A stretch of DNA of 42,984 bases from Polyangiaceae bacterium (GTDB taxonomy: Bacteria > Myxococcota_A > Polyangia > Polyangiales > Polyangiaceae), in assembly GCA_023150915.1 (NCBI GenBank), contig JAKLKA010000051.1, positions 1 through 42,984 of the forward strand, read 5' to 3'. Each line of letters starts with the position of its first letter. Position 1 is the stretch's first letter. The notes under the pieces were generated by a model. It was not told the origin of the DNA and did not search any database. It worked only from the letters and a program-made list of their open reading frames with translations. The position numbers were made by a program, and so were the translations under genes. This document shows positions 1,409 to 40,638 of the stretch, one piece after another.

Positions 1409-2107
1409 TTGAAACATCCCCTCTCCTGGGCGCTCACCCTCATCGCTTCACTGGCTGCCTGCGCGGGTGAGCGACGCGTGCACCCGCCGCCGGAAGGCGA
1501 GTGGCTCGAGTGGGAGCCCAAGCCGGAAGGGCAGCCGAAGAAGAAGTCGTCCTCGGCCGAGCCTTCGAAGCCCGAGCCGGCTTCCAGCAAGTCCAAGCCC
1601 AAGTCCGACACCGAAGATCTCGACGCGCCCAAGGCCAGCGCCAAGCCGGCGGCGTCGGGCCTCAAGTGCGCCGCGAAGAACCTCACGCGCGAGGCGCTGT
1701 GCATCGCGATGTCCGACCTGGACGTCAAAGAGTGCCCTGCAAAGCTTCCGAAGACCGCCGCAGCGAAAGAAGCGGGCGCGTTCGAGCTGCCGCCGAACGG
1801 CGCTCGCCGCGACCCATCGCTCGAGGAAAGCTCGAAGCAGTGCTGCTACGCCTGGTGCGGAAAGATCCCGGCGGCGCGGCCGCCCACCGCGTGCAAGAGC
1901 CCCGAGCCGCTGTTCTGCTTCGAGGCCCCGGCGGCCGGCGTCTCGAACGCGGCTCCACCGCCGTACGCCGACTGCCCCGGCGGCCTGGAGAAGACCGCGG
2001 CCAAGGGTCGACGCAAGGCGGTGCCGAACGCCACCTTCAGCGCCAAGCGAACCAAAGAAGAACGCGCCGGCGAGCCCAGGGCGTGCTGCTATGACGCGTG
2101 CAAGTGA
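1409..2107 (+). CDS. Cysteine-rich lipoprotein with duplicated CP...CCYxxC module
   Basis: I start this at TTG 1409 because GAGG at 1397-1400 is well spaced and the first residues then form a lipoprotein signal peptide (ASLAAC, Cys18). A Lys/Pro/Ser-rich linker to about residue 80 follows. The rest contains two copies of a roughly 65-residue unit: Cys, Cys, a CP..L.KTAA segment, about 30 variable residues, then CCYxxC. Copy one spans C87-C150 and copy two C162-C231. The Cys spacing suggests disulphides or metal binding outside the cytoplasm. I do not recognise a named family. It overlaps the possible upstream start (2091) of the following ATP-grasp gene, so co-transcription is likely. The frame is open far upstream, but that part is antisense to the neighbouring lipoprotein gene. 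Confidence 0.75.
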   Translation: MKHPLSWALTLIASLAACAGERRVHPPPEGEWLEWEPKPEGQPKKKSSSAEPSKPEPASSKSKPKSDTEDLDAPKASAKPAASGLKCAAKNLTREALCIAMSDLDVKECPAKLPKTAAAKEAGAFELPPNGARRDPSLEESSKQCCYAWCGKIPAARPPTACKSPEPLFCFEAPAAGVSNAAPPPYADCPGGLEKTAAKGRRKAVPNATFSAKRTKEERAGEPRACCYDACK

Positions 2108-2108
2108 C

Positions 2109-3335
2109 ATGAGCCAGAACGTCGTCTTCGTCGCACCTTTCCCGTCCGAAGCGACGATGCGCTTCGTCCGCGCCGTGGCCGCGCTCGACGACGTGAAGCT
2201 CTTGGGCGTGGTCCACACGCCGCCGCCCGAGCACGAGCGGCACTTGTACGCGGATCTGGTCCGGGTGACCGAGCCGATGAGCCTGCGCGACATGCTGGAC
2301 GGCGTCGAAGTGCTGCGGCAAAGGCACGGTCAGCCCCATCGGATCATCGGCATCCTCGAGATGCTGCAGGTGAACCTGGCCCACGCGCGCGCCCGCTTCG
2401 GTGTGGCCGGCACCAGCGTGGCCACCGCCGAGCTGTTCCGTGAGAAGGCACGGATGAAAGACGCGCTCGGCGCGGCGGGGCTGCCGGTGGCGCGCCACGC
2501 GCTGGTCCGCTCGGAGGCAGAGGCCCTCGCGTTTGCGTCCGAGGTCGGGTTCCCGCTGATCCTCAAGCCGCCGGCGGGAATGGGGGCCCGGGCGACTTTT
2601 CGCGTGTCGGCGCCCAGCGAGCTCACCCGAGTGCTCTCGGGCCTGGGCGTGTCACCCGCTCTACCGGTGCTGGCCGAGCAGATGCTGCGCGGCAGCGAGC
2701 ACAGCTTCGAGACCATCACCGTGGGTGGCGTACCCCAGGCGTGGTCCATGGCGAACTACCAACCCGGTTGCCTCGAGGTGCTCGAGAACCCGTGGATCCA
2801 GTGGGCCTGCGTGCTGCCGCGCGAGGTGGACGCCCCGGCGTGTCAGCGCGCGCGAGAGATGGGCTTTGCCGCCATCGCCGCGCTGGGCCTCGAGGACGGC
2901 ATGACCCACATGGAGTGGTTCGAGCAAGCCGACGGCCGCCTGGCCATCGGCGAGATCGCGGCCCGCCCGCCCGGAGCACAGCTGCTGCACATGACGGGCG
3001 TGGTCCACGACATCGACATCTATCGCGCGTGGGCCCGGGCCGTGGTCCACGGCGTCTTGGACGCACCGTGGCGGCGGAAGTACGCCGCCGGCTGCGCCTA
3101 CGTGCGGGGCATGGGCAGCGGTCGAGTCGCCGCGGTGACCGGTGTGCGCGAGACCCACGAGGCGGTGGGCCAGTGGCTGGTCGAGGCCAAGCTGCCGACG
3201 CTTGGAGCGACGAAGAACGACAGCTACGAGGGCGACGGCTACGTGATGGTGCGGCACGAGAGCACCGCCAAGGTCCAGGCGATGATCAAGACCATCGTCG
3301 AGACGCTGAAGATCCACTACGCCCGAGAGGGCTGA
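2109..3335 (+). CDS. ATP-grasp family ligase
   Basis: A 408-residue cytoplasmic protein with an N-terminal Rossmann-like region (NVVFVAPFP) and a central ATP-grasp fold. Recognisable elements are the pre-ATP Lys strand (FPLILKPPAGMGA), the adenine-side LAEQMLRGSEHSFE segment, and the metal-binding end GMTHMEWFEQ followed by GEIAARPPG. These enzymes use ATP to join a carboxylate to an amine or thiol through an acyl phosphate. The substrate cannot be read from sequence; the layout resembles carbamoyl-phosphate-synthase-like or amino-acid-ligase-like members. An alternative in-frame ATG at 2091 would overlap the upstream lipoprotein. The gene ends 4 nt from the convergent hemG stop. Confidence 0.85.
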   Translation: MSQNVVFVAPFPSEATMRFVRAVAALDDVKLLGVVHTPPPEHERHLYADLVRVTEPMSLRDMLDGVEVLRQRHGQPHRIIGILEMLQVNLAHARARFGVAGTSVATAELFREKARMKDALGAAGLPVARHALVRSEAEALAFASEVGFPLILKPPAGMGARATFRVSAPSELTRVLSGLGVSPALPVLAEQMLRGSEHSFETITVGGVPQAWSMANYQPGCLEVLENPWIQWACVLPREVDAPACQRAREMGFAAIAALGLEDGMTHMEWFEQADGRLAIGEIAARPPGAQLLHMTGVVHDIDIYRAWARAVVHGVLDAPWRRKYAAGCAYVRGMGSGRVAAVTGVRETHEAVGQWLVEAKLPTLGATKNDSYEGDGYVMVRHESTAKVQAMIKTIVETLKIHYAREG

Positions 3336-25121: not shown

Positions 25122-27410
25122 GTGCTCGGCATCGCGCGTTGGGGTCTCAGGCTCGGGGCCATGTCTTTCCTGCTCGCTTCGGCGTGCGGCGCGCCGGCGC
25201 CGCGCCCGCCCGAGACGGCAGTCACCCCGTCGGCCAAACCGTCCGAGAAGCCGCCGACCAAGCGTCAGCAGCTGATCGGCGCGCTGCGCTCGCTAGAGCG
25301 GACCAGTGATCCGATCGCGGCGCTCTCGCCCGCGCTCAAGGGCGAGCTTCGCGAGTTCGTGCAGCAGCTGGGTCAGGCGGAACGCACCGAGCTGGCCAAG
25401 CGCGAGAGCCCGCTGGTGCGCGAGCGCCCGCTGCTTCACCTGGCCGTGGGCGGCACCTCGCCAGATGCGCTTTACGAGCTCGGCACAGGGCAGCGGCTGG
25501 CGCAAGATCTGATGACCGTCCGCGCGGCGGCCGGGAAGTCCAACTTCGATGATCTGCCCGCGGCCGTGCGGGCGCTCAGCGCGAAATGCGCGAGCACCTG
25601 GCTGCGCGATCGCGCGGCCGAAGCGGCGTCCCCCACGGCGCTGACGCCCGAGCTGGCCGATCGCATCGACACCGCGGGGCAGGTGCTCGGGCGCTGGGAC
25701 GTGGTGCGGCTGGCGCGCGAGATCGCCGTCGAGCTGGTGCCCAACGACGCCGCACGCTGGGCGTCGCTGGCGCGCGTTTCGGCTCGCGAGCTCGACCTCG
25801 ACGCGACGCGGGCGGCCCTGACCGAGGCCAAGAAGTACCCGGTCGCCAACCGCATTCAGGCGGGCCGCATCGCCCGGGCCGAGAGGGCGCTGGCGGCGGT
25901 CACCCAGATCAAGCAGCTGGAGAAGACGGCCAGCGATCTGCCCAGCAAGCTCGAGCTTGCTCGCGCGCTGATCGACACCCGCCGTCTGGACGACGCGAAG
26001 AAGGTGCTGGCGCCGCACCAGGCCCAGGCAGCGAAGCATCTGGGCCTGGCCGCCGCGCTGGCCGAGACCGAGCTCGACAACGGCCTGTGCCCCGGGTTGC
26101 CGCTGGGCATGGGCAACACCTTCCTGTGCGCGCTGGCGTGGAAGCAGCAACCCCGCACCGTGAGCCTGGCCGCCGAGCTCGAGCGCGCGTGGCAGAGTGG
26201 CGGCGGCCGCGACGTCCGCGGCATCGAAGCCTATCTGGCCATCGTGCAGATCGCCCCGTGGCTGTACGGCACCGTGGGCACGGCCGGCACGTCGCAAGAA
26301 GAGCTGGGGAAGCGCTTTCTCGAGCGTCTGTCGTCGATGCAGGCCGCGGCGAAGCAAGCCGCGACCAGCGAGGCCCACTTTGCCGGCGCGGTGCTCTTCG
26401 CAGACACCATCGCCACCGGCTACGACGCCGTGGTCCACAACCAGACCAAGGTTCCGAAGGCCGCCCGCGCCGACCTGACCCAGCGCGCCATGCGGGGGAT
26501 CCAGGCCGCGCCGAAGGACGCGCTGGCGCACGCCGCGACCCTGGCCGTGGCAGCGCTGGCGTTCCGCGACGAAGACGTCCAGCCCTTGCTCGATCTCGTG
26601 CCCCCAGAGGTCGAGACCACCAACTTCATGGCGCTGCAGGTGCTGCGCCTGTGGACCGGCACGGTGAAGCAGAACGCCGGGCTGGCCCGCTCGGCCGCGA
26701 ACGAGCTGGCCTTGCTGGTGCCCGAGTACGAAGCCGACTCGCTGGACCGCGCGCGGCTGATGTTGATGCTGGCCGAGAGCGACGCGGCACTTCAGCGCAG
26801 CGACAAGGCGTTCGCAGTGCTCGAGCAGGTCGCGAAGTCGCTCAGCGGCCAGGGCGTACCCCTCGAGCTCAGGCTGCGCGCTGCCATCGACTATGCCGGC
26901 GTGCGTGCGCTGTCCGGCAAACCCGAAGAGGGCGCGCAGCTGCTCGAGCAGATCGTCGCGGCGGCGCCCATCACCCACCCGGATGCCAAAGCGCTGGGCC
27001 TGGTGGCGTCGAGCTATCTGTTCGTGCTGCGAGCGCGTGCTACCGGCGGCAGCGAGCGTGCCGAGTACCGCGACAAGTTCGTGAAGCTCGGCAGCGAGCC
27101 CGCCTTCGGCAAGGTCTCGTCGGCCACCGAGCTGTGGCGGGCGCTGTGGCTCAAAGAGCTCGACTATCTGGTCGAGTCCGATCGGTGCGGGGCGCTTCGG
27201 CCGTGCGCCGAGCGCGCCAAGCAGAAGCGGGCCGCGCCGCTGCCCGGCCTGGACGAGGCCGCCGGCCCCGAGGTCGCGAAGCTGATCCGGCGCGGAGCCC
27301 TGCCCACCGGGACGCTCAACCTGACGTTCGCGTTCGGCGCCTCAGGGCTCGAGGGCCTGGTCCAGGTCAGCCCCGCGCTGCTCGTGATGGACGCCCCACC
27401 GTCCGGGTAA
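25122..27410 (+). CDS. Large alpha-helical repeat lipoprotein
   Basis: The start at GTG 25122 gives a lipoprotein signal ending in LLASAC (Cys22); the ATG at 25161 would leave too short a signal. A Pro/Lys/Thr linker precedes a ~700-residue almost all-helical region rich in Ala, Leu and Arg, with TPR-like helical pairs such as LPSKLELARALIDTRRLDDA and RLMLMLAESDAALQRSDKAFAVLEQ. It probably forms a solenoid scaffold at the outer or inner membrane. There is no enzymatic motif. TAAGCT lies 6 nt before the GTG, with ATGACG 18 bases further up as a -35 candidate. The partner is unknown. Confidence 0.82.
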   Translation: MLGIARWGLRLGAMSFLLASACGAPAPRPPETAVTPSAKPSEKPPTKRQQLIGALRSLERTSDPIAALSPALKGELREFVQQLGQAERTELAKRESPLVRERPLLHLAVGGTSPDALYELGTGQRLAQDLMTVRAAAGKSNFDDLPAAVRALSAKCASTWLRDRAAEAASPTALTPELADRIDTAGQVLGRWDVVRLAREIAVELVPNDAARWASLARVSARELDLDATRAALTEAKKYPVANRIQAGRIARAERALAAVTQIKQLEKTASDLPSKLELARALIDTRRLDDAKKVLAPHQAQAAKHLGLAAALAETELDNGLCPGLPLGMGNTFLCALAWKQQPRTVSLAAELERAWQSGGGRDVRGIEAYLAIVQIAPWLYGTVGTAGTSQEELGKRFLERLSSMQAAAKQAATSEAHFAGAVLFADTIATGYDAVVHNQTKVPKAARADLTQRAMRGIQAAPKDALAHAATLAVAALAFRDEDVQPLLDLVPPEVETTNFMALQVLRLWTGTVKQNAGLARSAANELALLVPEYEADSLDRARLMLMLAESDAALQRSDKAFAVLEQVAKSLSGQGVPLELRLRAAIDYAGVRALSGKPEEGAQLLEQIVAAAPITHPDAKALGLVASSYLFVLRARATGGSERAEYRDKFVKLGSEPAFGKVSSATELWRALWLKELDYLVESDRCGALRPCAERAKQKRAAPLPGLDEAAGPEVAKLIRRGALPTGTLNLTFAFGASGLEGLVQVSPALLVMDAPPSG

Positions 27411-27443
27411 ACATCGGGAACTAGACTGAAATTTGGAATTGTC

Positions 27444-27470
27444 TTGCCAATGCCCACTTTATCCTACACT
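27444..27470 (+). promoter_or_regulatory. Probable promoter of the PilZ gene
   Basis: An unusually AT-rich stretch contains TTGCCA (27444-27449) and TACACT (27465-27470), 15 bases apart (shorter than ideal). The -10 box ends 8 nt before the ATG at 27479, so the transcript would be leaderless or nearly so. Confidence 0.4.
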
Positions 27471-27478
27471 GTGGGTGC

Positions 27479-27820
27479 ATGGATCACAGTCGCCGCCACT
27501 CTCGCCTTCCTGTGAGGTTCCCCGTAGCGATCGAGAGCCCCGCCAAGCCCGGCCGGGTGGGGGTGGTCCGAAACGTCAGCCAGCGCGGCGTGCTGCTCGG
27601 GACTCCCAGCCGCTACCAGCCCGGCCAGCGGGTCCGGCTGCGCTTCAAGACCCGATCCGGCGGCCCCGAGTTCGACCTGCCCGCCACCGTGGTGCGCATC
27701 GATCACGACCCCGACGGGGACTGGCTGGCCAAACTGGTTGCCTTCGAGTTCGACCGCGAGGTGAACGAGCACCGGATCGAAGAGCTGCGCCGCACCTACG
27801 AGCTCTTCTCGGCCGCGTGA
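27479..27820 (+). CDS. PilZ-domain cyclic-di-GMP receptor
   Basis: A single-domain PilZ protein of 113 residues. Both ligand motifs are intact: RxxxR (Arg5-Arg9, in RRHSR) and N-x-S-x-x-G (Asn32 to Gly37, NVSQRG), so cyclic di-GMP binding is expected. The beta-barrel continues through RVRLRFKT and FDLPATVVRI, and a C-terminal helix (VNEHRIEELRRTYELF) could mediate partner contact. It is cytoplasmic with no output domain, as in stand-alone adaptor PilZ proteins of motility or secretion systems. It converges with the kinase fusion gene, which ends 2 bases away. Confidence 0.93.
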   Translation: MDHSRRHSRLPVRFPVAIESPAKPGRVGVVRNVSQRGVLLGTPSRYQPGQRVRLRFKTRSGGPEFDLPATVVRIDHDPDGDWLAKLVAFEFDREVNEHRIEELRRTYELFSAA

Positions 27821-27821
27821 C

Positions 27822-30005
27822 TCAGTACTCGAAGCCGCTGCCGCCGATGAACTCGCGCAAGATCGAGGTCGGCGGGACGTGGTCCGGATAGATGGTCACG
27901 AAGCGGTCGAGCAGCCCCAGCAAGCGGAACGCCGTGGTGTAAGCCAGGTCCGACTGCGGAACCTCGAGCAAGTAGCGCTCGGCGAACACCTTGAGCACGC
28001 TGAGCTCGTAGATCAGCGACGAGTCGAACACCGCGTCGGCGTGGTGCTGGTAGGGGAAGATGTGCTTGCGCTCGCCGGCGCGCACGCTGGGCCAGCGCAA
28101 AATGTTCATCGCCGCGGTGGCGCCCCGCGTGTGCCGATCGCGAACGATGCGACGCAGCAGGCGCACGTCGCTGGCGTGCACCCGGGTCAGCCGATCGAAC
28201 GGCAGCTGGGCCAGCGGGCAAGCGAACACGCGATACACGCTGCTCTCGGGCAGGCTCGAGAGCAGCGTGGGGTTGATGCCGTGGATGCCCTCGAGCATCA
28301 GGATGTCGTGCTCACCCAGGGCGATCGCCTGCCCGCCGTCGGGGTGGCTGGCCCCGCTCGCGAAGTCGTAGTGCGCCGTGCGCACGGTCTCGCCGGCCAG
28401 CAGCCGCGAGATGTGCTGCTGAAGCAGGCCGACCCGCAGCGCCTCGAAGGCTTCGTAGTCGAAGTCGCCCTTTTCGTCCCGGGGCGTTTCGTCCCGGTCC
28501 ACGTAATAGTCGTCCAGCGACACGCCCACCGGGTTGATACCGTTGACCTGAAGCTGCACCTTGAGCCGCTTGATGAACGTGGTCTTGCCCGACGACGACG
28601 GCCCGGCGATGCACACCACCTTCACACCCCGGCCGCGCGAGTAGATGTCGTCGGCGATGCGGCCGATGCGCTTCTCTTGGAAGCCCTCGCTCACGCGGAT
28701 CAACTGCGACACGTCGCCGCGGATGCAGGCGTGGTTGAACGCCCCGATGCTGGTGATGTCCAGGGTCTCGAGCCAGCGATCTTGATCGCGGGTCATGGTG
28801 CTGGCCTGGTGCGACACGTCACGGGCGTGCTGCACGTGCGACGCCGGCACGCTGGGCACGCTGCCGTCGGCGGCCCCGGTCTCTTCCGAGGGCGTGCTGT
28901 AGACCATGAGCAGCGCGCCCTCGTCGGCCAGCACGCGGAACTCGGGTGAGAGCTTGCCGGTGCTGGGAAGCATGGCCCCGAACGAGAGCACGTAGACCTC
29001 GCCACAGGCGACCAACGGCACGGCCGGCTCGCGCCACAGGTCGAGCAGCTTGGCCACGTCGGCCCAACCGGCGGTGGCGAAATGCGCTCGCGCCTCGTCG
29101 ACCGTCCACCACTCTTCGCGCAGCGGGGCGTCCTCGGCGATCAGCTCGCACATGCGTCGTTCCAGCTCTGCGGCCAGCGCCCCGAGGCCCTCGGGCGCGC
29201 AGCCCTCGAGCATGACCCGCTGGGCGAATCCCACGGAATGCCCCATGCAGAGCCGCAGGCGCGGGTCCACGCGGCGCGCGGCCTCCATCAGCACCAGCGC
29301 CTGGCTGTGCCGATAGATGCGCTGCCCCTCCCAGTGGTCCACGGTCAGCGCCTCGACCGTGCAGTCCGAAGACAGCGGGCTCATGAGCGACAGTGCCTTC
29401 TTGTCGACCAGGGCGGCGACCACCAGGCGGCCCTGCTCGAAGCGCGGCAGCAACGTCTCGAGCGCAGTCCCCGTCGGTGCACGGCGGGGACTCCCGTCCA
29501 CCGTCACCCCCAGGCTGGTGCGGCGCGGCAGCGAGCGCTCGTGGAGCAACAGCCCCACGCTGTCGGTCATCTCGACCAGGCGGTTGGCCACGCCACCGAC
29601 CAGGGCGCGCACCACACGCAGCGCCAGCGCCGGCTGCTCGCGCGCGAAGTCGTCGTAGCGCTCCAGGGTGAGCACGGCGAGCTCCATCGGGGTGGTCGCG
29701 GTGATGGTGGCGGCGCGGGGCCGATCGGCGATCAGCGCCAGCTCGCCGAAGTGCTCACCGCGCCCGACCTCTCCCAGCTCGAGCCCCCGCCGCGCGATGC
29801 GCGCGCTGCCCTGGAGCACGAAATACATGGCGCGATCGCGCTCGCCCTCGGTCACGATCACCGTGCCGGGCACGGCCGCCAGCTGATCCAGGAACGGGGC
29901 GAACAGCTCACGGTCCAAAGACGACAGCTCGCGCAAGATGGGGTTCCCGCTGGCCCCCAGCTCGGTGGACGACGGAGCGACACTGGTTCTGGGTCGAATC
30001 GACAT
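27822..30005 (-). CDS. Fusion: cNMP-binding domain + TGS/SAD-like region + uridine kinase-like domain
   Basis: A 727-residue three-part protein. Residues ~22-145 form a cyclic-nucleotide-binding domain with the phosphate cassette GEHFGELALIADRPRAAT (Glu88, Arg97), so ligand binding is plausible. Residues ~164-225 resemble a TGS domain (VTVDGSPRRAPTGTALE) and ~225-370 the second additional domain of threonyl-tRNA synthetase (MGHSVGFAQRVMLEG, HFATAGW). Residues ~455-727 are a P-loop kinase of the uridine-kinase/phosphoribulokinase group: Walker A GPSSSGKTT (468-476), VGVSLDDYYVDRDETP, and LMLEGIHGINP. The TGS-SAD-kinase layout is known in bacterial uridine-kinase-like proteins; the N-terminal cNMP sensor is the unusual part. 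It likely phosphorylates a nucleoside or related substrate under second-messenger control. No SD is seen. Confidence 0.9.
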   Translation of the reverse strand: MSIRPRTSVAPSSTELGASGNPILRELSSLDRELFAPFLDQLAAVPGTVIVTEGERDRAMYFVLQGSARIARRGLELGEVGRGEHFGELALIADRPRAATITATTPMELAVLTLERYDDFAREQPALALRVVRALVGGVANRLVEMTDSVGLLLHERSLPRRTSLGVTVDGSPRRAPTGTALETLLPRFEQGRLVVAALVDKKALSLMSPLSSDCTVEALTVDHWEGQRIYRHSQALVLMEAARRVDPRLRLCMGHSVGFAQRVMLEGCAPEGLGALAAELERRMCELIAEDAPLREEWWTVDEARAHFATAGWADVAKLLDLWREPAVPLVACGEVYVLSFGAMLPSTGKLSPEFRVLADEGALLMVYSTPSEETGAADGSVPSVPASHVQHARDVSHQASTMTRDQDRWLETLDITSIGAFNHACIRGDVSQLIRVSEGFQEKRIGRIADDIYSRGRGVKVVCIAGPSSSGKTTFIKRLKVQLQVNGINPVGVSLDDYYVDRDETPRDEKGDFDYEAFEALRVGLLQQHISRLLAGETVRTAHYDFASGASHPDGGQAIALGEHDILMLEGIHGINPTLLSSLPESSVYRVFACPLAQLPFDRLTRVHASDVRLLRRIVRDRHTRGATAAMNILRWPSVRAGERKHIFPYQHHADAVFDSSLIYELSVLKVFAERYLLEVPQSDLAYTTAFRLLGLLDRFVTIYPDHVPPTSILREFIGGSGFEY

Positions 30006-30043: not shown

Positions 30044-31510
30044 GTGGCGGCCGAGGAAAAGGGCGTTGTCGCCTGGAAGCGCATCGGGCTCGGGGCGGGG
30101 CCCGCGGTTTTTGCGCTCTTGGCGTTTGCCCCCTCGAGCCTGCATCGAATCCCGGGCATGGGGCACCGCCCGGCCTACGCCGCAGCCGTCGCCGGCCTGA
30201 TGGCGGTGTGGTGGTTCACCGAAGCGCTGCCGATCGCGGTCACGGCGGTGGTCCCGCTGGTGCTCTACCCACTGTTCGGTGTCTTCGGCCGCGGACCCAG
30301 GGGCGATGCGCTCCGCACCGTCGAGCCCTATTTCGATGCATACATCTTCTTGTTTCTGGGCGGCATGACCCTGGGCGCGGCGATGGAGCAGTGGGGGCTG
30401 CATCGCCGGGTGGCGCTCATGATCATGCGCGCCATCGGCACCGAGCCCCGGCGCTTGCTGTTCGGAATGCTGGTGTCGACCGCGGCGGTCTCGATGTGGA
30501 TCTCGAACACGGCCACGGCAGTGATGATGATGCCCATAGGCATGGCGCTCTTGGCCCAGCTGGAACAGGGTCAAGGCGGTCGCCGGCTGGGGGATTTCGG
30601 CGCCAGCCTGATGCTGTCGATCGCTTATGCCTCCAACGTGGGGGGCATCGGCACCAAGATCGGAACTGGTACCAACTCGATCTTCGTCGGGTTCCTGTCC
30701 GAGAAGCTCGGATACGACATGAGCTTCTTGCGCTACATGGCCGTCGGGCTTCCGTTCGTCGTGCTGTCCATTCCCGTCGTGTGGTGGGTGCTGTGGCAGA
30801 ACGCGAAGGGCGACGCGCCGACGGGCGGGCAGGGGCGGGCCGTGCTGGATCGCGAGCTTGCCGCGCTCGGCGCCTGGTCCACGCGCGAACGGCTGGTCGC
30901 GCTGGTGTTCGTGGGCGCTGCGGTGCTGTGGATCTTCGGCGACGTGCTGCGGCCGCTGCTCGCGCCGGCGGCGGCGGGCCTTTCGCCCGGCTTCAAGCTG
31001 CTCGGCAAGCACTACGAGGCGGGGGTGGCGCTGCTCGCGGCGGCGGTGCTGCTCTCGACCGGCACCGTGAGCCGCGCGCAGCTGGCACGCGTGCCCTGGA
31101 GCACGCTGCTGTTGCTCGGCGGCAGCTTCGCCCTGGCGGCCGGCATCGAGGGCGGCGGGCTGTCGGGGTTCATGACCCAGAAGCTCGAACCCGTGGCGCG
31201 CCTCCCCCTGATCGCCCAGCTGGGCCTGGTCTCGGTGGCCACGGTCGGGCTCTCGGCCGTGGCCTCGAACACCGCCACGGTGAACGTGCTCTTGAACGTG
31301 CTGCCGCGCTCGCTACCCGTGCTCTCCGCCTGCGCCATCGCGGCTTCGTGCGACTTTGCGCTGCCCGCGGGCACGCCGCCGAACGCCATCGTGTTTGGCA
31401 GCGGATACGTGCGCTTGCCTCAGATGATGCGGATCGGGGCGGTGCTCGACGCCCTGGCCGCCGCGCTGATCACGGTCTACGCGTACTTCTACCTTCGCAG
31501 CGTGCTGTGA
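30044..31510 (+). CDS. SLC13/DASS-family dicarboxylate (or related anion) transporter
   Basis: A 488-residue inner-membrane protein with about 11-12 hydrophobic segments. The paired DASS family motifs are present: SNTATAVMMMP near residue 155 and ASNTATVNVLL near residue 407, each containing the Ser-Asn-Thr triplet that binds sodium and substrate. LFLGGMTLGAAMEQWGLHRR and the C-terminal DFALPAGTPPNAIVFG are also typical. Relatives import succinate, malate, fumarate or citrate with sodium. Start GTG 30044 has no SD; TAGGTT lies 7 nt upstream. The hybrid histidine kinase gene starts 10 nt after the stop, hinting at shared expression. Confidence 0.92.
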   Translation: MAAEEKGVVAWKRIGLGAGPAVFALLAFAPSSLHRIPGMGHRPAYAAAVAGLMAVWWFTEALPIAVTAVVPLVLYPLFGVFGRGPRGDALRTVEPYFDAYIFLFLGGMTLGAAMEQWGLHRRVALMIMRAIGTEPRRLLFGMLVSTAAVSMWISNTATAVMMMPIGMALLAQLEQGQGGRRLGDFGASLMLSIAYASNVGGIGTKIGTGTNSIFVGFLSEKLGYDMSFLRYMAVGLPFVVLSIPVVWWVLWQNAKGDAPTGGQGRAVLDRELAALGAWSTRERLVALVFVGAAVLWIFGDVLRPLLAPAAAGLSPGFKLLGKHYEAGVALLAAAVLLSTGTVSRAQLARVPWSTLLLLGGSFALAAGIEGGGLSGFMTQKLEPVARLPLIAQLGLVSVATVGLSAVASNTATVNVLLNVLPRSLPVLSACAIAASCDFALPAGTPPNAIVFGSGYVRLPQMMRIGAVLDALAAALITVYAYFYLRSVL

Positions 31511-31520
31511 GCGTGGCATT

Positions 31521-33746
31521 TTGAGCCGGGCGAGCGTGACCAGCCAGCGCAACGACAGAATCGGTCGCTACCGGGCGGCGTTCGAGGCGGCTTTCGACGG
31601 CATCTTGATGGCCGACGGCGACGGCTCGGCGCTGGAGGTGAACGCCGCCGGGCGCGAGGTGCTGGGCTTCTCGCGGGACGAGCTGGCGCGGCGGAACCTG
31701 CTCGACTTGCTCGAGCCGGGCTCGACCCTCGACTTCGAGTCGGCGCGGGCCGGGCGCTGGCTGATCTGCAAGGACGGCCGTGCCCTGCACGTCGAGCTCG
31801 AGCGCGTGGCGGATGGCTCGCTGCACTGCGTGATCTTCCGCCATCCGTTGCCGACCATGGCGGAAGAGACCCCCGCCACCCGGGAGCGACTGTTCCGTGC
31901 GCTGGTCGAGCACAGCCATGACGGCGTGGTCTTCCTCGACGCCGAATCGCGCATCACCTATGGCAGCCCGGCGGCCACTCGGATCAGCGGGTTCGCGCCT
32001 GGCGAGCTGAATCGGCGCAGCGTGCTCGAGCTGCTTCACCCCGAAGACCTGCCCCGCGCCGCCGAGCAGCTGGCCGAGCTCGCGCGCCGCCCGCGCGAAG
32101 TGGTCAGCGGGCGCTGGCGGATTCGCACCCGGGCGGGCGACTTTCGCTGGGTCGATACCACGTCGAGCAACTTGCTCGCCGAGCCGACCGTGCAGGCGAT
32201 GGTGGTGCACCTTCGCGACGCGACCGAGCTGGTGACCCACGAGGCAGAGCTGCGCCGCTTCGAGCGGGTGCTCGCGGCCACGCCCGATCTCGTCTCGCTG
32301 GTCGACGAGCGGTACGTCTACCAGCTGGTCAACCGGAGTTACCTGGATGCGCACGGGCTCTCGCCCGAGCGCATCGTCGGGCGTTCCGTCGCCGATCTGC
32401 TGGGCGCGGAAGTGTTCGAGCGCGTGGTCCGCCCGCACCTCGATCAGGCCTTGGCGGGAACGCCGGTCAGCTACGAGCAGTGGTTCGACTTTGCCGCGGC
32501 CGGCCGTCGATTCATCAGCGTCACGTACTCGCCCTATCGTGACGCCAACCGCCGGATCGTGGGGGTGATCGTCTCGGCGCGCGACCAGACCGAGCTGCGC
32601 ACTGCGGCCGACGAGCTGGAAGAGAAGGAAGAGCAGCTGCGCCAGGCCCAGAAGATGGAGTTCGTCGGCCGGCTGGCAGGCGGCATTGCCCACGACTTCA
32701 ACAACCTGTTGACGGTCATCCTGAGCTATTCGTCGCTGATCGAAGGTTCGGAGAGTATCGATCCCGACGCGCGCGAGATGGTGCTCGAGATCCGCAAGGC
32801 GGGGGAGCGCGCCGCCGCCATGACCCGCCAGCTCTTGGCGTTCAGCCGCAAGCAAGTGCTCACCCCGCGCGTGCTCGACCTCAACGCCACCGTTCAGGGC
32901 ATGAGCACCATGCTCGGTCGGCTGTTGCCCGAGAACATCGAGCTCGTCCTCGCGCTGGCGCCCGATCTGCGCCCCATCAAGGCCGACGGCCACCAGCTGG
33001 AGCAGGTGGTGCTCAACCTGGTGGTCAACGCCCGCGACGCCATGCTCCGCGGCGGGCGCATCACCATCGAAACGCGGAACCACGACGCAGAAGGCGGCGA
33101 GCAGGTGATGCTGGCGGTGTCCGACACGGGTCACGGCATCGACGCCGAAACCCGGGACAAGATCTTCGCGCCGTTCTTCACCACCAAGGCCCCGGGCAAG
33201 GGCACCGGGCTCGGCCTGGCCATGGCCTACGGATTCGTCACCCAGAGCGGCGGTTCGATCTCGGTCGAGAGCCAGCCCGGAGCTGGCACGACGTTCACCG
33301 TGCTCTTGCCCGTGGCCCAGGGGGAGGCACCGTCCGAAGCACCGCGCCGACCCACCGTGCCGGTGCGGCGACCCAGTCGCGCCACCATCTTGCTGGCCGA
33401 GGACGAAACCGCCGTGCGCGGCCTGCTCGAGCGCGTGCTCGGTCGCGAGGGCTACACGGTGCTCGCCGCCGAGAACGGGCGAGCCGCGCTGGAGCGGGCC
33501 CGCGCCTACGCCGGTGAGATCGATCTCTTGCTGACCGACGTGGTGATGCCCGTCATGGGGGGGCACCAGCTGGCAAAAGAGCTGCTGGCGGCCCGACCTG
33601 GCCTGCGCGTGCTCTACATGTCGGGGTACGCCGAGAACGTCATCGCACACCAAGGCGTGCTGGACCCGGGCGTCGTTCTGATCGAGAAGCCCTTGAGCCC
33701 GGCCGTGGTGCTGCGGCGCGTGGCGGAAATGCTCACGTCGACGTAG
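31521..33746 (+). CDS. Hybrid histidine kinase: three PAS, HisKA, HATPase, receiver
   Basis: A 741-residue soluble sensor kinase. PAS-like domains lie at ~15-110, ~122-238 (with PAC motif GDFRWVDTT) and ~245-360. The HisKA box has phospho-acceptor His391 in [11 protein letters not shown], then the N box (Asn503 in NLVVNARDA), G1 DTGHGID (535-541) and G2 GTGLGLA (561-567). The C-terminal receiver (~622-740) has Asp673 in [12 protein letters not shown] and Lys723. The layout fits the family of kinases with a receiver C-terminal to HATPase. There is no transmembrane segment, so it senses cytoplasmic cues. The start is uncertain (TTG 31521 or GTG 31536). It follows the transporter gene by 10 nt. 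No dedicated partner response regulator is visible. Confidence 0.93.
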
Positions 33747-38904: not shown

Positions 38905-38964
38905 GCCGGCTTGCCTCGTGCCGCGCGTTGCCTGCTACGATGACTGCCCCCCAGCGCCCCGACC

Positions 38965-40638
<1,674 letters not shown>

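Follow-up and report, generated by a model that had tools for sequence, protein, structure and literature searches.

A gene within a 42,984-nucleotide stretch of DNA from a Polyangiaceae bacterium (the whole stretch is called the window below) joins a cyclic-nucleotide sensor to a threonyl-tRNA synthetase (ThrRS)-like module and a P-loop kinase, and thereby raises the question of what a second messenger might control through such a protein. The answer to which we give about an even chance is a cyclic-nucleotide-gated, probably cAMP-gated, phosphotransferase that acts on a small metabolite, probably one other than uridine.

One reading frame encodes a sensor, a ThrRS-like module and a kinase

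The gene occupies window positions 27822..30005 (-), begins at an ATG and yields a protein of 727 aa, in which a cyclic-nucleotide-binding domain (cNBD) is followed by a TGS/SAD module resembling the N-terminal part of ThrRS and by a PRK-type kinase. As delimited by Pfam, alignment and fold matches, the cNBD including its C-terminal helix covers residues 12-150 (29556..29972, (-)). The TGS and SAD module covers residues 163-372 (28890..29519, (-)) and is separated by a variable linker (residues 373-404; 28794..28889, (-); major-residue fraction 0.23 for 371-402) from the kinase module (residues 405-727; 27825..28793, (-)). The latter consists of a helical front (405-460), the P-loop GPSSSGKTT (468-476), the motifs LDDYY (497-501), EGIHGINP (572-579) and RRIVRDR (618-624), and a conserved tail (666-727) ending in REFIGGSG.

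Pfam assigned cNMP_binding to residues 46-122 (57.2 bits, cut-off 27.5) and PRK to residues 463-662 (61.7 bits, cut-off 22), and listed no TGS or SAD model for the 727-aa protein up to E 1. The ThrRS-like middle was recognised by three other routes. For residues 151-727, phmmer returned a match to S. aureus ThrRS (1nyq) across TGS and SAD (E 1.2e-4), and alignment of the family profile to the genome's own ThrRS with hhalign spanned 170 columns at a probability of 98.9, the E-value being nominal in this one-sequence database. Structure prediction, proposed as a check by the earlier sequence-only reading of this DNA, gave an AF2 model of the whole protein with a mean pLDDT of 90.6 and a pTM of 0.76, for which the top Foldseek match was E. 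coli ThrRS (1qf6, E 6e-12); the ThrRS editing-domain structure 1tje was matched with a TM of 0.71 on target. Together, these matches bore out the three-part architecture put forward in that reading. Relatives with as little as 39% identity keep the full length, with every part in a single frame, and dN/dS was 0.055-0.24 for each part in two comparisons within the same genus; the fusion is therefore not due to chance, confirming that sensor, ThrRS-like module and kinase form a genuine three-part protein.

The fusion arose once within Myxococcota

At a threshold of E 1e-40, the family was found in 82 of 377 genomes of Myxococcota, the phylum to which named near relatives assign the window. In 47 of these 82, the alignment starts at residue 59 or earlier and runs to the end in one frame, corresponding to the full-length fused form. 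Alignments begin only at residue 144 or later in 23 cases, and the sensor was not found by profile in any of the 12 sequences examined from this group; the other 12 of the 82 are split, cut, partial or otherwise built. In the window's order, represented by a genome sample that overlaps with that of the phylum, 63 of 183 genomes carry the family. Here, 53 members are full-length fused, among them G603 with a TGA inside the gene, three lack the sensor (G016, G024, G025), and seven are split, partial or unaligned at the N-terminus; two of these seven (G642, G686) have a divergent sensor according to a profile trained on other fused proteins. Fused forms are present in the window's class and, within the phylum, outside that class. 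In another phylum (one with a Lachnospiraceae record), 94 of 199 genomes carry the family at E 1e-30; none of these 94 alignments starts before residue 132, and most extend to residue 720 or further.

A scan of genome contigs yielded 17 loci, comprising eight fused (L038-L044, L046), one two-frame (L045) and eight unfused members; L046, labelled Proteobacteria, shares its contig coordinates with G273 of Myxococcota. In L045, the sensor (627-1496, (+)) and the enzyme (1500-3125, (+)) lie in adjacent frames parted by a stop, which reflects either a sequencing error or a true split. Fused and unfused forms occur together in G172, and such cases are too few to claim that the two forms exclude each other.

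In a tree calculated without the sensor, 55 fused and five ambiguous rows formed one clade with an SH-aLRT of 100, the only support measure of this quick method, and all 29 unfused rows fell outside it, the outgroup rows not lying on one side of a single branch. Identical rows and rows with <480 module columns (L050, L137, L138) were excluded from the tree. The ambiguous rows (L026, L027, L045, L121, L125), all inside the fused clade, were counted as neither form, and L023, in which only part of the sensor is in frame, was counted as fused. Because all fused rows fall into one clade, there was one fusion event, in an ancestor within Myxococcota, followed mainly by retention. The unfused L029, L030 and L031 of the window's own family group with other unfused rows and are therefore not sensor losses.

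Most fused proteins retain an intact cyclic-nucleotide cassette

VIA matched the N-terminal domain to 3gyd (Z 19.1, rmsd 2.9, 158 aligned) and 4ev0 (Z 18.2, rmsd 1.6, 130 aligned), which together with the cNMP_binding score above its cut-off identifies a cNBD of the PKA/CRP type. The phosphate-binding cassette FGELALIADRPRAAT (residues 86-100, inside 29556..29972, (-)) carries the Glu and Arg of such domains as E88 and R97, at the very positions named in the sequence-only reading, so that its claim of an intact cassette stood; judged from these residues, the domain is likely to bind a cyclic nucleotide. Each of E88 and R97 is present in 46 of 54 distinct fused proteins (both in 44), and when the 135 cNBD columns are ranked by conservation, the two fall within the top 11. 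At cassette position 98, Ala is associated with cAMP and Thr or Ser with cGMP; this residue is Ala in 34, Thr in 11 and Ser in 4 of the 54.

In the same 54 proteins, the commonest residue had an average share of 0.73 in the kinase and 0.82 in the C-terminal tail, compared with 0.55 in TGS, 0.54 in SAD and 0.49 in the sensor (0.66 in its cassette). In two within-genus comparisons, dN/dS was 0.06 and 0.12 for the kinase module and 0.09 and 0.24 for the sensor, indicating purifying selection on the latter. The weaker conservation of the cNBD relative to the kinase nevertheless counts against a gated phosphotransferase, as does the loss of E88 and/or R97 in 10 of the 54, in several of which most of the cassette is gone. 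These ten proteins are scattered over several places in the tree, L021/L123 and L022/L124 being sister pairs; sensing was therefore probably lost several times while the domain was retained, and ligand binding would be dispensable in those lineages. The broken cassettes on several branches, together with the score of L046 against cNMP_binding (19.3 bits, below the cut-off), are what might be expected if the N-terminal domain no longer sensed a cyclic nucleotide and had a structural or dimerisation role. Since both key residues are intact in the protein studied here and in 43 others, and exceed most of the domain in conservation, we consider this quite improbable.

The window's genome contains ten class III cyclase-domain matches, and at least one such match was present in all 22 fused-type genomes tested and in 19 of 22 unfused-type genomes. 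With cyclases frequent in both genome types, their presence does not discriminate between them and shows only that the messenger can be present; their occurrence in unfused-type genomes is a further point against the gated phosphotransferase. Cyclase co-occurrence (median of 8 matches in fused-type versus 2.5 in unfused-type genomes, 22 each) was rejected as support, fused-type genomes also tending to be larger.

The ThrRS-like module has lost most of the editing ligands

The editing (SAD) domain of ThrRS uses the ligands of an HxxxH and a CxxxH motif. We located these positions through alignment to the genome's own ThrRS and compared them in an alignment of 45 sequences (A1). This alignment left out the copy from the window itself (L001), duplicate or nearly duplicate rows (L038, L039, L044, L055, L056), fragmentary or split genes (L023, L026, L027, L045), L018, whose start is unsettled, and L049, L050, L053, L058, L061, L068 and L074. 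In the studied protein the four zinc/editing positions read H233, L237, S341 and M345. The first is His in 7 of the 45 proteins, the second and fourth are His in none, and the third is Cys in none. With three of four ligand positions replaced, an active editing domain is ruled out, and the suggestion of the sequence-only reading that the SAD-like part binds an aminoacyl group lost its footing.

Foldseek also matched the AF2 model to a chain from the large subunit of the mitochondrial ribosome (7o9k, 3j7y), which we take to be mL39. By analogy with this chain of the same fold, the TGS/SAD module more probably serves for scaffolding or binding than for editing. The ribosomal match and the presence of the ThrRS-N-like module in the family also lend themselves to a different view of the whole protein, namely a translation-linked regulator in which TGS/SAD would bind tRNA, mRNA or the ribosome and the P-loop domain would be an ATPase switch set by the cyclic nucleotide. 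We regard this as rather unlikely: conservation is highest in the kinase module and moderate in TGS/SAD.

The kinase core is intact and differs from uridine kinase in its pocket

All 45 aligned proteins keep G468, G473, D498, E572, R618, R619, R622, D623 and R627, and 44 of 45 keep K474 and E645; the ATP-binding core is thus intact. D498, R622, R627 and E645 would be residues expected of a phosphotransferase and not of a plain ATPase, which argues against a translation-linked ATPase switch.

Since the VIA matches to the whole model lay mostly within residues 6-156, the kinase module was folded and searched alone. The nearest folds were PRK-superfamily metabolite kinases, with type I pantothenate kinase closest (Z 16.7, rmsd 3.2, 222 aligned), followed by UCK2 (Z 14.5, rmsd 3.4, 185 aligned), while Foldseek ranked uridine-cytidine kinase (UCK2) first, above pantothenate kinase. 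Which substrate is used does not follow from a common fold. Further matches to the kinase fold were the N-domain of Tad2, an adenosine deaminase of fission yeast, and the kinase part of TTM1 from plants (7eey, 7z67), other examples of a PRK-like domain joined to another enzyme. In L137 (G180), L138 (G289) and G268, with frames of 464-530 aa, the kinase part alone aligns (residues about 414-727); these represent a further family architecture without a recognised TGS/SAD part.

The sequence-only reading had proposed nucleoside phosphorylation under cyclic-nucleotide control, that is, a cAMP-gated uridine/cytidine kinase for pyrimidine salvage. In line with this, the PRK/uridine-kinase profile matches, the catalytic core is intact, uridine kinases are the nearest solved sequences by family profile, and UCK2 leads the Foldseek ranking. 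However, both curated uridine-kinase equivalog models scored the fused protein far under their cut-offs (74.3 versus 180 and 66.8 versus 220.3 bits), all three unfused family members tested also fell short of the cut-offs, and the genome of the fused protein encodes a separate canonical Udk (EC 2.7.1.48; L008) at 281.8 bits against the cut-off of 180. Compared with this Udk, the family retains the P-loop, the catalytic-type Asp D498 and the YDF, EGI and RR-RD motifs, but carries an insertion ahead of the RR helix and an extra, conserved tail. In addition, G551 takes the place of the His of YDFSTH, with Gly in 44 of the 45 aligned proteins, and E518 that of the leading Asp in FDHPD (aligned to 517-521), with Glu in 45 of 45; the latter is a mild change and tells slightly in favour of the salvage enzyme. 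In UCK2, these Asp and His positions presumably bind base and sugar.

Published assays on a protein of this architecture point in the same direction. TmUK of Thermotoga maritima is reported to consist of a nucleoside-kinase domain and a threonyl-tRNA-synthetase domain; neither the full-length protein nor the truncated kinase formed UMP, and hydrolysis of ATP took place with uridine present (PMC10248530). Model scores, pocket changes, the separate Udk and these assays together disfavour a plain uridine kinase; the proposed uridine phosphorylation thus found no backing, the salvage reading is weak, and we consider it distinctly unlikely. The same assays also weigh against our preferred phosphotransferase, TmUK being the sole described protein of this architecture and having hydrolysed ATP instead of phosphorylating uridine. 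They favour a role in translation, and the authors, citing Wolf 2000, themselves prefer 'autoregulation of translation' (PMC10248530).

No ortholog of a neighbouring gene was found beyond the genus

We compared the window with 24 regions (20 genome regions and four loci, up to about 8 kb per side, some shorter) and found no neighbour retained as an ortholog beyond the genus, a pattern expected of an add-on regulator on a stand-alone enzyme. Nor was any conserved linkage to translation genes seen in the 24 regions, a further argument against the translation-linked regulator. At E 1e-25 and half-length coverage, and with the family itself and antisense shadow frames set aside, one cluster occurred in at least four regions, a sensor-kinase-like gene. 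A protein-kinase gene at 38965-40638 (+) of the window (also delimited as 38944-40635; PF00069, 156.5 bits), probably of a common family, has relatives of 31-42% in four other regions of the 24 at E 1e-12. At this threshold a further gene is common to four regions, in three at 95-98% mutually and in L040 at 39-41%. As distances vary and such kinases belong to common families, we read these shared genes as chance or close kinship and discarded them as an operon clue.

Immediately beside the fused gene, window 30044-31510 (+) encodes, in divergent orientation, a sodium:sulfate/DASS-type symporter (PF00939, 182 bits); 38 bases separate its called start from that of the fused gene. The two genes also adjoin each other in two further genomes of the genus and in none of the other compared regions. 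The symporter gene is followed by a PAS-HisKA-HATPase-receiver hybrid sensor kinase (31521-33746, (+)). Downstream of the fused gene, the frames 25122-27410 (+) and 27425-27817 (+), neither with a Pfam match, have relatives among the 24 regions only in the same-genus G001 (76% and 82%).

A possible mechanism and its implications

In the gated phosphotransferase that we prefer, a PKA-type cNBD was joined once, in a Myxococcota ancestor, ahead of an otherwise unchanged ThrRS-N/PRK enzyme. A cyclic nucleotide, most likely cAMP from the genome's class III cyclases, would occupy the N-terminal cassette and shift the C-helix (125-155), and the catalytically dead TGS/SAD module may relay this motion to the kinase. 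The kinase would thereby be opened or closed, switching ATP-dependent phosphorylation of a small metabolite, probably not uridine. If gated in this way, the fused protein would enlarge the set of bacterial enzymes under direct cyclic-nucleotide control by one enzyme class.

In a variant that we hold to be fairly unlikely, the switch set by cAMP would instead lie on a P-loop protein that derives from ThrRS and associates with RNA or the ribosome, and whose 'kinase' would be an ATPase or a modifier of an RNA- or amino-acid-linked substrate. If true, such a switch would provide a direct second-messenger input to translation in Myxococcota.

The ThrRS-N/PRK family is widespread, as the 94 of 199 genomes of one other phylum illustrate, and its active site is almost invariant. 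We found no established reaction for it, the sole activity test found being negative for the annotated function (PMC10248530). The fused form offers a handle on this family in that a cyclic nucleotide could serve as activator or probe in substrate screens, and Myxococcota supply natural pairs with and without the sensor.

Comparison with known systems

The fused protein belongs to the ThrRS-N/PRK-kinase family, in which a ThrRS-like TGS/SAD module precedes a PRK-type kinase. Eight rows of unfused relatives, with 33-39% identity, align over residues from about 160 to 727; when only the kinase module is compared, identity is 38-49% (25 rows). With unfused members of other phyla, the alignment is end to end at 33-37% (L047, L048, L051, L052, L054; the phylum of L051 is not named). 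Four of eight matches in a plasmid collection bear the name 'nucleoside kinase' and the other four are nameless.

Compared with Udk and UCK2, the fused protein shares the P-loop kinase fold and core motifs, but differs in the His to Gly and Asp to Glu exchanges, the insert before the RR helix, the helical front and the tail of about 60 aa. When the kinase module is compared in VIA together with its front helices, type I pantothenate kinase (CoaA) reaches the top Z; at 16% identity, the resemblance seen is one of fold only. With the N-terminal TGS and editing domain of ThrRS, the fused protein shares the fold and residual sequence similarity, but it lacks the aminoacylation domain and, in the 45 aligned proteins, has three of four zinc/editing ligand positions replaced.

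An N-terminal cNBD is also found in the M. tuberculosis lysine acetyltransferase Rv0998, whose activity is under cAMP control. Rv0998 structures match residues 9-147 of the fused protein (4avc, Z 15.8, rmsd 2.5, 130 aligned; 4avb, Z 15.7, rmsd 2.6, 131 aligned), whereas its catalytic domain, an acetyltransferase, is unrelated to the kinase.

The three-domain 'uridine kinases' of Thermotoga maritima (TmUK) and Treponema pallidum likewise combine a ThrRS-like N part with a C part of the nucleoside-kinase superfamily, as described (PMC10248530). Unlike the fused protein, TmUK and the NCBI 'nucleoside kinase' have no cNBD, the likeness to TmUK being drawn from its description and from the name 'nucleoside kinase' among the plasmid-collection matches. 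Among the matches listed in the literature searched, including PMC1949818 and PMC1779556, no description of a cNBD fusion was found, subscription papers lying largely outside this coverage. The link that the sequence-only reading had called undescribed can be upheld in this literature for the fusion itself. The ThrRS-N/PRK parent, called 'nucleoside kinase', is a known and named but functionally orphan family, of which the cNBD-fused protein is a new form.
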